Virus record (IMG/VR): IMGVR_UViG_3300030098_002685
Location: 1-38,937 of that record
Source of the DNA: a virus
DNA: 38,937 nt
Direction: 5' to 3' (one strand)
In this document: positions 1,808 to 26,922 of the stretch, piece by piece
How the letters are laid out: every line of letters begins with the position of its first letter
Position numbering within the stretch: position 1 is the stretch's first letter
The notes under the pieces: generated by a model
Told to the model about the DNA's origin: nothing
Database searches by the model: none
What the model saw: the letters and a program-made list of their open reading frames with translations, nothing else
Position numbers and translations under genes: made by a program

Positions 1808-2878
1808 TTACATTTCTGCGTCAGCAATTACAGCACCAAACATCAAATCATTTGCGTGACTTGAATCAAGAGATGTATCGTTTATGTGTAATCCAGATAC
1901 TTCTGAATTGTCACTAACGGCTTCTGTCGTGCCATCATTTGCATTTCTGAATACACCATTAGCAGCACCATTTGGGTAAGTATTAACAACAGTCACAGAT
2001 GGGTCTGTTCTCAATTCTATTGCAAGTTTATGGTCAACAAGAAAATCCCCATGATCGTCAGCAATTGTGAAAAAAGAATAACCATTACCTACTCCTGTAT
2101 TGCCAGATTTTGATACATCGTGACCAATACTAGAAAAAAAGTATCGTTGACAATCAGACCATTCTTCTGCAAAAGATTTTCTGTCATATGTTCCAGCGAC
2201 ATCTGCAACTTCTAATTGAACATCTGTAATATATAAAATATCTCCAACATTATTAGTTTCAGTTTGCGACCAGATAAAGACAGCAATATTATTTGTTGAT
2301 GAGGTATCAACAGCAATACCCTCTATTGTATATGTAGCAAAAGAAGTAGTTAAAGCTAAACTTGCAGCCGTATTTTCATAGGTCCAATTTGTAGCTAATG
2401 TAGGTACAGTTGAGGCATTTTCCCAAGCATTAACAACATCACTTGTAACTGAATCAGCAGTTCCATCCCACGAAATAACAGCAGCCCTAACATCTGTTAA
2501 TCTAGCATTACTAACTTTAGCTTTAAACTGTAAAGATACTGTTTGACCAATAGCAGCGTGACTGTCAGCAGACTCAAGAAATTGCACAATACCAAATTTT
2601 TTATCGTCTGTTTCTACATCTAAAGCAATAGTATTAGGTGAGCCACCATCAGGTGCTGTTGTACTACGAGTAACATCCACAATATCATTACCATCAGAAA
2701 CTAAATTCCATCTGTCCAAAGTATAACTGTCGTCGTTGTTGTTATAAGTTGAAGCAGAAGTTATTGCTGCTCCACCACCTCTTTGATTGACCATCATAGC
2801 TCCATTAATCAATAAATTTTTATTATTGTTTAAATTTCCTACAGGAACATCTGTTGGTCTAGCACCTAAATATGGCAT
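1808..2878 (-). CDS. Tail fibre / receptor-binding protein with carbohydrate-binding-like module
   Basis: 356 residues. It begins MPYLGARPTDVP, an N-terminal tag shared with the adhesin at 3135-3761 (MPYLGKEPNASP), which suggests both dock to the same tail component. Residues 21-34 (NLLINGAMMVNQRG) are a common opening of phage fibre modules. They are followed by a beta-rich, Thr/Ser/Asn-rich region that resembles a carbohydrate-binding jelly roll up to about 230, then a collar (AEEWSDCQRYFFSS) and a C-terminal tip. The start overlaps the stop of the upstream small gene by one base. Probably displayed on the virion and involved in host recognition. Confidence 0.8.
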   Translation of the reverse strand: MPYLGARPTDVPVGNLNNNKNLLINGAMMVNQRGGGAAITSASTYNNNDDSYTLDRWNLVSDGNDIVDVTRSTTAPDGGSPNTIALDVETDDKKFGIVQFLESADSHAAIGQTVSLQFKAKVSNARLTDVRAAVISWDGTADSVTSDVVNAWENASTVPTLATNWTYENTAASLALTTSFATYTIEGIAVDTSSTNNIAVFIWSQTETNNVGDILYITDVQLEVADVAGTYDRKSFAEEWSDCQRYFFSSIGHDVSKSGNTGVGNGYSFFTIADDHGDFLVDHKLAIELRTDPSVTVVNTYPNGAANGVFRNANDGTTEAVSDNSEVSGLHINDTSLDSSHANDLMFGAVIADAEM

Positions 2879-3123
2879 TATTCCACTCCAAGTCTTTTGT
2901 TTCTATCGGCAGCAGTTTCTATTGTAGCATTTGTAATAGTAGTATTCTTAGTGCTATCTGAAGCCTTTTTGCTTACACCCTCTATATCACAATAATAGTC
3001 AATCGCTTTTCTAGCTTTATTGCTAACAGCGTTTTCTAGCCATGTTTGGATGTCTACTATTTGACCATTCATAGCTTTTTGTTGAACGTCATTTAGGGTT
3101 ACTTTATATTCTTTGTCTGCCAT
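2878..3123 (-). CDS. Small fibre-region protein, unknown
   Basis: 81 residues, mostly helical and charged, with an AAGGAGAAAACA ribosome site. The N-terminus (YKVTLNDVQQKAM) is followed by a DIQTWLENAVSNKARKAIDYYCDIE helix pair and a Thr/Asn-rich tail. It sits between two adhesin genes. It may be a fibre chaperone or assembly factor. No family recognised. Confidence 0.65.
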   Translation of the reverse strand: MADKEYKVTLNDVQQKAMNGQIVDIQTWLENAVSNKARKAIDYYCDIEGVSKKASDSTKNTTITNATIETAADRNKRLGVE

Positions 3124-3134
3124 TGTTTTCTCCT

Positions 3135-3761
3135 TTAGGCTATTTTCTGAACATTAAACCAAGTATATTCTTTTGATCCAGTCATATTTGTAGCACCACC
3201 AAAATTATGATGGACAAACACTTCTAAATAATCATTTGCATCTAATAATGCAATGCCAGTAGTGTTAGCAGCCATAGAAGCTGAAGCAGAAGCATGAGTC
3301 CTTGTTCTAAATAAATCTCCACCATTTTTTTGAATATAAATAATTAAGTTGTCAGCATCTGTTCCAGTAGTATGAACACTTGCAATAGCTAAATACAAAC
3401 CATCAACAGGTGCTGTAAAACGATAATTTGTTGAGCTATCAAAATCATTATTGCGGTCATAAACTTCTGTAGCCAAAGAAAGTTTTGTAATAGTGGTATT
3501 GTTTACAGATTGATTACTAGCTAGATGAGCATGAACCGCAGGTTGTAATGGCATATCCATAATACCATTTGTATCAAATGTCATACTTGTAGTAGTTCCT
3601 AGTGTTGAGCCTTTTCCAAAAGTTAATTTATCAGCAGAGTCATCTAGACCTATGTGGTAATCAACAGCATTACCATCTAGCTTCAATAAAATATCTTCTG
3701 CTGCACCTGTTCCTAGTGTTTGGCTAGGTGAAGCGTTTGGTTCTTTACCTAGATATGGCAT
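3135..3761 (-). CDS. Adhesin with C1q-like C-terminal domain
   Basis: 208 residues. The N-terminal MPYLG tag matches the fibre at 1808-2878. Residues about 15-75 repeat the 'TGAAEDILLKLDG...DDSADKLTFGKGS' pattern of phage fibre shafts. Residues about 105-208 have the C1q/TNF-like jelly-roll signature: YRFTAPVDGLYL, then alternating strands with IYIQKNGG and a final EYTWFNVQKI strand. C1q-like tips trimerise and bind surface ligands. The stop overlaps the upstream gene's context closely, as expected in the fibre operon. It is probably a trimeric side fibre or receptor-binding tip. Confidence 0.8.
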   Translation of the reverse strand: MPYLGKEPNASPSQTLGTGAAEDILLKLDGNAVDYHIGLDDSADKLTFGKGSTLGTTTSMTFDTNGIMDMPLQPAVHAHLASNQSVNNTTITKLSLATEVYDRNNDFDSSTNYRFTAPVDGLYLAIASVHTTGTDADNLIIYIQKNGGDLFRTRTHASASASMAANTTGIALLDANDYLEVFVHHNFGGATNMTGSKEYTWFNVQKIA

Positions 3762-24028: not shown

Positions 24029-24045
24029 ATTTTTAGCGACACTAT
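24029..24045 (-). promoter_or_regulatory. Copy A of the ATAGTGTYGCTAAAAA motif
   Basis: On the leftward strand this reads ATAGTGTCGCTAAAAAT. The same 16-base core occurs at 24652-24670 (opposite strand, exact core) and at 25079-25097 (same strand, one change), the two feet of the giant inverted repeat. Copy A is outside the repeat, beyond the small terminase gene. The context AGTAC-N(11-14)-motif-TAAAA is shared with the 25097 copy. It may be a protein-binding site, possibly for packaging or transcription. Confidence 0.5.
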
Positions 24046-24128: not shown

Positions 24129-24596
24129 CTAATGGACTGACTCCTCATTGTTTCCGATGTCGGTAGACTCGGATTTACTATCATCTAAGGTATTAGCCTG
24201 TTTATTTAGCCCTTCGATAAGCTCTTTAGCCCTGCTCTGAAGTGCTTTAATGTCACTAGGGGATTGGGCAGACATGTTCAAAACCCTTTCTACAGGGCGG
24301 TGTCCAGACCTATCTAGCAGGTCTTTGAGCGCATCGAACTGTACCTTTTCTGACCTTGCGTCTGTGGCTAACCTGACTAACCTATCGAGCAACTTTGGTG
24401 CTAGACCTGCAAAGGTATTGTGTGTCAATTCGTGTATTCTATCCAGTACATGTGTCTTGTTCAGTAATCTATTTGCTTCGACCGCAGCTGACTCTACAGC
24501 ATACCCTGCGTCGATTGCGGATTTCTGTTTTTGCCCACCGTTCTTCACATAGGCTTGTGCGAACTCTTCCTGCTTAGGTGTTAAAGTACGTGCCAT
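24129..24596 (-). CDS. terS: Terminase small subunit
   Basis: 155 residues. The N-terminus LTPKQEEFAQAYVKNGGQKQKSAIDAGYAVESAAVEANRLLNKTHVLDRIHEL (residues 5-57) is the Terminase_2-type DNA-binding helix-turn-helix, followed by an oligomerising helical middle and a Ser/Asp/Glu-rich tail. It should recognise the packaging site and load TerL. The gene is GC-richer than its surroundings: two sampled 60-bp blocks here are 47-50% GC, against 25-38% in blocks from the internal virion genes. It is the first gene of the late operon, preceded by the giant structured leader and a 7-bp hairpin. Confidence 0.9.
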   Translation of the reverse strand: MARTLTPKQEEFAQAYVKNGGQKQKSAIDAGYAVESAAVEANRLLNKTHVLDRIHELTHNTFAGLAPKLLDRLVRLATDARSEKVQFDALKDLLDRSGHRPVERVLNMSAQSPSDIKALQSRAKELIEGLNKQANTLDDSKSESTDIGNNEESVH

Positions 24597-24619
24597 ACTA
24601 TCATATCTTTCATTGTTGA

Positions 24620-24637
24620 ATATTCCTTACGGAATAT
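24620..24637 (-). promoter_or_regulatory. 7-bp hairpin with GUAA loop in the terS leader
   Basis: ATATTCC (24620-24626) pairs with GGAATAT (24631-24637). On the leftward strand the loop reads GTAA, i.e. a GNRA-type RNA tetraloop (GUAA); on the other strand it is TTAC. This supports formation in the leftward transcript, 24 bases before the terS start codon. It could protect the message end after processing or modulate terS translation. Confidence 0.5.
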
Positions 24638-24651
24638 ACTTTGGTTAGTTT

Positions 24652-25097
24652 ATAGTGTCGCTAAAAAAATATCAGCTACAGAATTTTTTGTCCACAATAC
24701 ATTTTCCCCCATCTTGCTAAGTACTCCCAAAAAGGTTTATCGGATATATGTTTCCCCCCTAACTTCCGACAGCACTCTTTTACAATGCTCTAATTTGATT
24801 CCAACTATGTAGTGATAAGATACCCTAACGATAGAGGCAAATATCCCCTAATGCAAGTTAACCTGTACCAGGAGGAGCTTCGCTCCTAACTTGCATCAGT
24901 TAATATTTCCCTCCACTTCGAAGGGTATCCTAATCACAACATAGTGTGGTCAAATTAGGATTGAAAAAGAGCACCGTCGAAAGAGGGCAGAATACATATA
25001 CCACGAGAAACCTTAGGTCATACTAAGCAAGGTGGGACAAAATGGTGAACAATAAAATCCTCTAGCTCATATTTTTTTATTTTTTTAGCAACACTAT
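24652..25097 (-). ncRNA. Giant rod-shaped structured element (446 nt imperfect inverted repeat)
   Basis: The two halves are complementary from end to end. Helices, outside to tip (left/right): 24652-24670/25079-25097; 24674-24678/25063-25067; 24680-24687/25054-25061; 24688-24695/25045-25052; 24700-24705/25039-25044; 24708-24718/25026-25036; 24720-24723/25021-25024; 24732-24738/25008-25014; 24745-24751/24994-25000; 24757-24760/24984-24987; 24763-24770/24976-24983; 24775-24781/24965-24971; 24783-24786/24960-24963; 24790-24798/24950-24958; 24805-24810/24939-24944; 24812-24816/24933-24937; 24819-24826/24922-24929; 24834-24844/24903-24913; 24851-24860/24887-24896. The tip holds CCTG-TAC-CAGG and AGGAGC-TTC-GCTCCT hairpins. 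I count about 148 pairs, broken by small bulges. The region has no gene. Four C-A mismatches become G-U on the leftward strand against one in the other sense, favouring leftward transcription as leader RNA or separate RNA. An origin or packaging site is the alternative. Confidence 0.6.
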
Positions 25098-25152: not shown

Positions 25153-25425
25153 ATGAAACTATCACTTAAAGAAAAACTTTCTCAACTATCATTCTTTAAT
25201 AAGTTTTATAAATCGGAAATAGAATCCCTCAAAAAACAAGTAGAAGAAATGGAAGCTGATTATTGGCATCAACAAACAACCATAGATTTATTAGTAGATG
25301 ACATTAACTTCATGAAACAAGGCGGTAGCTTTGATGAAATGTTAGAACAAACTGCATTTGGGATGCATCCTTGTGTAGATGCAGAAGAAGCAGAATACAT
25401 AGAAGCAATGCAAGGAAGGGGGTAA
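25153..25425 (+). CDS. Early coiled-coil protein, unknown
   Basis: 90 residues, first gene of the early operon, with AAGGAG eight bases before the ATG. Residues 17-42 (FYKSEIESLKKQVEEMEADYWHQQTT) form a coiled-coil helix. The C-terminal half is acidic (VDAEEAEYIEAMQ). Small early coiled-coil proteins often bind host factors, but nothing specific is seen here. Confidence 0.7.
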   Translation: MKLSLKEKLSQLSFFNKFYKSEIESLKKQVEEMEADYWHQQTTIDLLVDDINFMKQGGSFDEMLEQTAFGMHPCVDAEEAEYIEAMQGRG

Positions 25426-26796: not shown

Positions 26797-26836
26797 AAAG
26801 GATGCCTAGTCTAACAGCTAGGTATCCTTTTTTTTT
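26797..26836 (+). terminator. Strong intrinsic terminator
   Basis: Thirteen base pairs (26797-26809 with 26818-26830, one G-U at 26804/26823), an 8-base loop and a run of nine T (26828-26836). The G-U pair fits rightward transcription. It ends the first early unit right after the 184-aa gene. Confidence 0.92.
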
Positions 26837-26876
26837 GGTATTTTCAGTGCATAATTATTACATGCATTTCACTTGT

Positions 26877-26922
26877 GCGGACGTAACTATCATAATTTTG
26901 CGGACGTAACTATCATAATTTT
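26877..26922 (+). repeat. Two exact tandem 23-bp repeats upstream of the second early unit
   Basis: GCGGACGTAACTATCATAAT plus TTT occurs at 26877-26899 and again at 26900-26922 with no spacer. They lie between the terminator and the ATG at 26943. Each copy has a TATCATAAT that can serve as a -10 region. The 23-bp period is about two helical turns, so a protein could bind both copies on one face. Probably paired operators, or duplicated promoter elements. Confidence 0.7.

Follow-up and report, generated by a model that had tools for sequence, protein, structure and literature searches.

A long rod-like fold upstream of terS is conserved on the late strand of three related podovirus contigs

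Three related podovirus contigs share a rod-like fold of 388-446 nt, which selection on pairing conserves on their late (terS-sense) strand. We analysed the 38,937-base virus record IMGVR_UViG_3300030098_002685, here called the window, in its whole length, and found homologous rods in two relatives, contigs L004 and L005. The rod is a real, selected RNA-like structure and, by the tests available, a new RNA family. As for its role, we tentatively prefer, at somewhat less than even confidence, the explanation that the rod is the 5' leader of a late transcript of roughly 24 kb and acts in cis, transcription being untested.

The late operon of the window, which contains the TerS, TerL, portal, capsid and tail genes, runs leftward, the early region runs rightward, and the rod element fills the gene-free gap between them. 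A previous reading, made from the sequence alone, had placed a giant inverted structure at 24652-25097, between divergent early and late operons and upstream of terS; the location held and the coordinates proved exact, the rod being bounded by the inverted terminal motif ATAGTGTTGC / GCGACACTAT (late strand). It lies outside genes and 55 nt upstream of terS in the window, and the distance between rod and terS is ~55-110 nt in all three rods. The elements of the locus are the following.

24652..25097, minus (late) strand: rod-like RNA element, 446 nt (fold z = -21.4; homologous rods in L004 and L005)
24129..24596, minus strand: terS, terminase small subunit, first gene downstream of the rod (phrog_51, E = 6e-16)
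25153..25425, plus strand: first gene of the rightward early region, of unknown function and divergent from the rod
24619..24640, minus strand: small hairpin between rod and terS, GTATATTCC-GTAA-GGAATATTC, doubled in L004 and absent as such from L005

In the window and in L089, which is the same contig as L005, the stretch from the rod to terS showed no terminator-like site, and a consensus scan of the minus strand just right of the rod found no convincing sigma-70 promoter. In L005, the early gene starts only 40 nt from the rod. ARAGORN detected no tRNA genes in the window; of the proteins scanned, none was recognised as a phage RNA polymerase, and no antiterminator gene was recognised. The GC skew switches direction at the rod site. 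In the early region of the window, we also observed a strong intrinsic terminator (26797-26837) and, after it, two perfect 23-bp tandem repeats (TGCGGACGTAACTATCATAATTT, 26876-26922), possibly an operator.

Folded as RNA, the minus strand of the 446 nt reaches -231.1 kcal/mol, compared with -108.5 +/- 5.7 kcal/mol for shuffled sequences (z = -21.4), and the plus strand reaches -170.5 kcal/mol (z = -15.0); on either strand, none of 100 shuffles was as good. The sequence-only reading had argued that arms complementary from end to end could not be due to chance, and the shuffle control that it proposed indeed gave a large energy advantage on both strands. It had left the strand unchosen: the fold of the minus strand is better than that of the plus strand by 60 kcal/mol, and the strand of the rod is the minus, late strand. 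This fold comprises 189 pairs in 29 helices, mostly parted by 1x1 mismatches, with 85% of the bases paired. The long collinear pairing was thus correctly described, while the first counts of ~148 pairs and ~20 helices were too low. The overall shape is a single long rod that branches nowhere but at its very tip, where the single two-hairpin structure already proposed is real.

24887..25097, minus strand: 5' arm (rod positions 1-211, from the collinear pairing list)
24862..24886, minus strand: two-hairpin tip, GGAGC-GAA-GCUCC and CCUG-GUA-CAGG, both with GNA triloops
24652..24861, minus strand: 3' arm (rod positions 237-446, from the collinear pairing list)

In the relatives, the tip hairpins read GAUCC-GCA-GGAUC and CCUC-GAA-GAGG, with compensatory changes in the stems and the GNA loops kept.

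Homologous rods come from the closest relatives of the window. A TerL search returned seven contigs at ~87-100% identity, after which identity drops to ~54%. Two contigs of this close group, besides the window, cover the rod site, and both carry a rod directly upstream of terS, of 439 nt in L004 (L004:6-444, z = -20.1) and of 388 nt in L005 (L005:4454-4841, z = -23.8). The inner parts of L004 and L005 are nearly the same, so the number of independent observations is below three. Three patterns taken from the rod, two of exact DNA and one gapped, retrieved only the L004 and L005 relatives from viral contigs, a covariance model built on the inner 150 nt revealed nothing new in 78 sources or in 12 whole records, and blastn of the rod against 50,697 phage records gave 0 matches. 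No other full copy of the rod was found in the window or in the viral-contig pattern scans. With Rfam 15 at the gathering threshold, there were 0 matches in the window, and 0 between 24500 and 25200 even at E<=5; no ribozyme family of Rfam matched in the rod region. A full-text literature search of incomplete coverage gave no precedent for a rod-like or long-hairpin phage RNA. Together with the absence of an Rfam match, this agrees with the initial impression that no phage RNA of such form has been described. Two apparent candidates were discarded: a palindrome of 83% upstream of TerL (L127:1-362) is a perfect contig-end fold-back of coding sequence, most likely an assembly artefact, and a contig-end fold-back in L008 was set aside on its position and 94% identity only. 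The one distant relative from a scan of genome contigs sits in a contig that bears the label Gemmatimonadetes MAG, which is unreliable as a host call.

To evaluate selection on pairing, swap energies were used in the outer rod, which is misaligned by sequence-only alignment. Outer arms gained -64 to -70 kcal/mol of binding with their own partner arm and -15 to -25 kcal/mol with foreign arms, and swapping arms between relatives costs ~40-55 kcal/mol of binding. In the sequence alignment of the three rods, both sides had changed at 20 pairs, versus 8.8 +/- 2.3 in shuffles, and 87% of the cells were paired, versus 40-47% with partners slid. This double-change test carries the caveat that the structure was derived from one of the tested sequences and that the shuffles leave relatedness in. 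More specifically, in the inner 150 nt, which are reliably aligned, 10 of 56 pairs were changed on both sides (permutation p about 5e-5): paired positions carry 16 substitutions on the 5' side and 14 on the 3' side, and 10 of them coincide in the same pair. Eight of these ten double changes lead from one Watson-Crick pair to another, one leads to G-U and one turns a mismatch into a pair, so that nine of ten exchange a standard pair for another standard pair. Pairing is therefore kept while the sequence drifts, indicating that the fold itself is preserved. A maintained RNA fold, and not a recent DNA inversion, had been suspected from the many small loops, and the compensatory changes at paired positions of the homologues, together with the energy advantage over shuffles, support this view.

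The kinds of pairs also point to one strand. G-U pairs exceed A-C oppositions on the late strand by 16:1, 19:2 and 17:0 in the three rods, in an alignment that scores both alike. We rejected mutational strand bias as the cause of this excess, because four-fold sites of the late genes on the same strand are skewed in the opposite way, with C over G (-0.15) where the rod has G over C (+0.17). An excess of G-U on the late strand, opposite to the skew of the four-fold sites, suggests that a specific single strand is under selection, most likely as RNA. G-G and U-U are the better tolerated mismatches in RNA, and in the rod they are in excess over A-A and C-C; since this could make part of the G-U bias compositional, a contribution that we cannot exclude, the weight was put on the arm-swap and double-change tests.

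Besides its pairing, the rod shows conservation of sequence at both ends and in one segment of the 5' arm. The ten terminal bases of each rod end are almost invariant, and the adjoining outer rod is variable.

25088..25097, minus strand: terminal motif ATAGTGTYGC, invariant in the three aligned rods except at Y
24652..24661, minus strand: terminal motif GCGACACTAT, invariant in the three aligned rods
24930..24992, minus strand: conserved 63-nt segment of the 5' arm, of the same length in all three rods
24930..25004, minus strand: candidate short leader reading frame ending in NPNLTTLCCD-stop (weak, three sequences only)

The 63-nt segment has 2 substitutions per comparison, against 5-10 substitutions plus gaps in its 3' partner. 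The NPNLTTLCCD C-terminus and the stop of the reading frame are kept in L004 and L005, the upstream starts differ, and the frame in L004 differs by compensating frameshifts. This segment may encode a leader peptide, or serve as a promoter or as a binding site for a protein, and three sequences cannot decide. The rod ends, GCRACACTAT when read outward, overlap outward-facing -10-like sequences, TATAAA or TATTTT; in the window and in L005, TATAAA overlaps the outer edge of the GCGACACTAT motif, its reading as a promoter being an inference. A pair of divergent promoters at the ends of the rod therefore remains a serious alternative, under which the rod would need its own transcription. The 3' terminal sequence of the rod also recurs in the window between terS and the next gene (24030-24045), as an exact inverted copy of 16 nt, which is absent from L002, L004 and L005. 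A suspected terminase-binding repeat after terS was rejected, as it was judged by eye to sit in a coding start.

Other relatives carry different structured regions upstream of terS. In three contigs with TerL identities of 58-64%, a region of ~630 nt (624-637) directly upstream of terS is structured on the terS strand (L095:1320-1956, L096:2720-3343 and L167 ~2870-3500), with z = -9.0 in L095, where the opposite strand has -6.6, and z = -8.4 in L096. Laying the L095 fold on L096 gave 10 both-side changes that keep pairing versus 3 that break it; 26 single breaks make this fold less certain. No match to the ~630-nt region was found in phage records. Another terS-upstream structured region, with two copies of a hairpin module, lies at L098:2300-2718 (TerL 61%, z = -5.4). 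At these loci no Rfam family matched, save for one chance-level match (E = 0.69). We infer, without proof, that these phages recurrently carry a large structured RNA ahead of terS. Separately, the phage record MW202898 has a long branched hairpin across an annotated gene boundary (L165:14250-14650, z = -8.2), and HTVC010P (KC465898) has a noncoding region upstream of the late genes that is mildly structured on the plus strand (L163:60-720, z = -4.3), a value owed partly to a terminator-like hairpin.

Judged by its strand and position, the rod is more likely a late leader, or a noncoding RNA of the late strand, than an origin, although these functions are untested. If the rod is a leader, leftward transcription would put it at the 5' end of a packaging and morphogenesis message of roughly 24 kb, and once the 3' arm is made the leader would close up, so that this message begins with a long, duplex-like rod. 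The closed rod may block single-strand nucleases and access to the 5' end, and RNase III or other dsRNA-binding proteins of the host may use it as a substrate or land on it; in these ways it would set the stability and processing of the late mRNA. A ribosome translating the short frame in the 63-nt segment could delay closure of the rod, resulting in an attenuator-like timing. Transcription, the leader role and the interaction with RNase III or ribosomes are all inferred; the placement as a leader is better supported than the specific biochemical step, which is a guess.

In support of the leader, the rod is on the sense strand of the operon and directly upstream of its first gene, the minus strand folds better and carries the G-U bias, and pairing is maintained, as seen from the arm swap and the both-side changes. 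The rod is near terS in all three contigs, without a terminator-like site between them in the window and L089, its 5' arm is under extra sequence constraint, and the proteins scanned included no recognisable phage RNA polymerase. Different structured regions at the same site in other relatives are consistent with a leader position, but they are not sequence-homologous to the rod. Also against the leader, the scan just right of the rod showed no convincing sigma-70 promoter, the gap to the early gene is only 40 nt in L005, its 189 pairs are more than a leader needs, and the short frame rests on three sequences without a conserved start. The main weakness lies in the outward -10-like sequences and the divergent promoters that they may form: with such sequences at both outer rod ends, late transcription may start on the terS side and skip the rod.

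The main rival to the leader, possible though on balance unlikely in our view, is a trans-acting and abundant dsRNA-like noncoding RNA, which could occupy a host dsRNA-binding protein or defence sensor as a decoy or sponge, or be a structural RNA comparable to the large phage RNAs whose function is unknown. The outer half of the rod conserves pairing and not sequence, as expected if any dsRNA suffices, and large abundant noncoding RNAs do exist in phages (GOLLD, ROOL, ICP1; PMC12286853, PMC7567579). A CBASS cyclase senses a structured terS-terL RNA of ~400 nt (PMC10686824), but this cabRNA triggers rather than blocks immunity, and it lies within genes. A separate RNA would require processing, as no terminator was recognised ahead of terS in the window and L089, and the position beside terS is fixed in all three contigs.

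We consider it improbable that the rod is a packaging element, recognised by the terminase as RNA or as a DNA inverted repeat (a pac or cos site, or a part like pRNA). The rod is directly upstream of terS, a place where small-terminase recognition sites are often found; its invariant terminal motif has the further copy just after terS in the window. However, this extra copy is missing in L002, L004 and L005, the strand-specific G-U bias speaks against a site in duplex DNA, and size and form are unlike those of phi29 pRNA.

A structure of single-stranded DNA, such as a replication origin or a priming or assembly site, or a cruciform, has slight credit. The minus strand folds as DNA too (z = -19.4), the GC skew changes direction at the rod, and a G-T mismatch is well tolerated in DNA as well. 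On the other hand, the change in skew follows the change in gene direction, no direct-repeat array adjoins the rod, and G-U makes up 8-11% of the rod pairs, a share typical of RNA helices. Formally, the late strand could still fold as single-stranded DNA, but the G-U share favours RNA. Finally, a decaying MITE-like inverted-repeat mobile element or a functionless inverted duplication is very improbable, because, despite the terminal inverted repeat ATAGTGTYGC / GCGACACTAT and its solitary end-like copy at 24030-24045, the compensatory changes and the G-U bias indicate selection and not decay, the site is the same in all three contigs, and no dispersed full copies accompany the repeats in the window or in the viral-contig pattern scans.

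A DNA phage that keeps a rod RNA by compensatory evolution, at a fixed position ahead of its packaging and structural genes, would represent a new RNA family, one that offers an obvious experimental handle. As a leader, the rod would point to a mechanism, so far unrecognised, by which late messages are timed or protected; as a free RNA, it would be a candidate for a dsRNA decoy, or for a trigger, in the conflict between phage and host. The unrelated large structured regions at the same spot in other relatives suggest a wider, unexplored trait. We offer, as a speculation with the odds against it, that the rod defines a new class of phage RNA, a long and nearly continuous double-stranded rod of the late strand in which selection keeps double-strandedness and not sequence in the outer half, which steers late expression or engages host dsRNA-binding or defence proteins, and which, in related phages, has functional equivalents in the form of large, differently shaped RNAs at the same site upstream of terS.

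The best-known examples of dedicated rod-shaped RNAs belong to viroids and delta-like agents. Viroids and hepatitis delta-type rods are circular RNA replicons; they are rod-like and self-complementary along the whole length, as is the rod described here, and viroids are of similar size, whereas this rod is encoded in phage DNA and matched no ribozyme family in Rfam. HK022 put and lambda nut are cis-acting structured RNAs near a phage operon start, tens of nucleotides long; the rod likewise is structured and near the start of a long phage operon, but it has 446 nt in a single duplex-like rod, and no antiterminator gene was recognised. The phi29 pRNA, of ~170 nt and with a three-way-junction fold, shares with the rod a conserved structure and a variable sequence; the rod is longer (388-446 nt) with a junction only at the tip, its phage has TerS and TerL, and its link to packaging is by position only. 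GOLLD and ROOL are, like the rod, large, highly structured, phage-borne and of unknown function (PMC12286853). They form elaborately branched, multi-copy cages, often near tRNAs, whereas the rod is unbranched and upstream of terS, and neither their models nor any other in Rfam matched it; tRNA neighbours are frequent and not universal for GOLLD and ROOL, and the window has no tRNA. The phage ICP1 and its satellite produce abundant noncoding RNAs, and one of them, the IIR RNA of the satellite PLE, is flanked by terminal inverted repeats as the rod is, but it is not described there as a full-length rod (PMC7567579). The cabRNA of staphylococcal phages, which activates CBASS, resembles the rod in being structured, ~400 nt long and from the terS region (PMC10686824); it originates inside the terS and terL genes, whereas the rod is a dedicated intergenic element outside genes.
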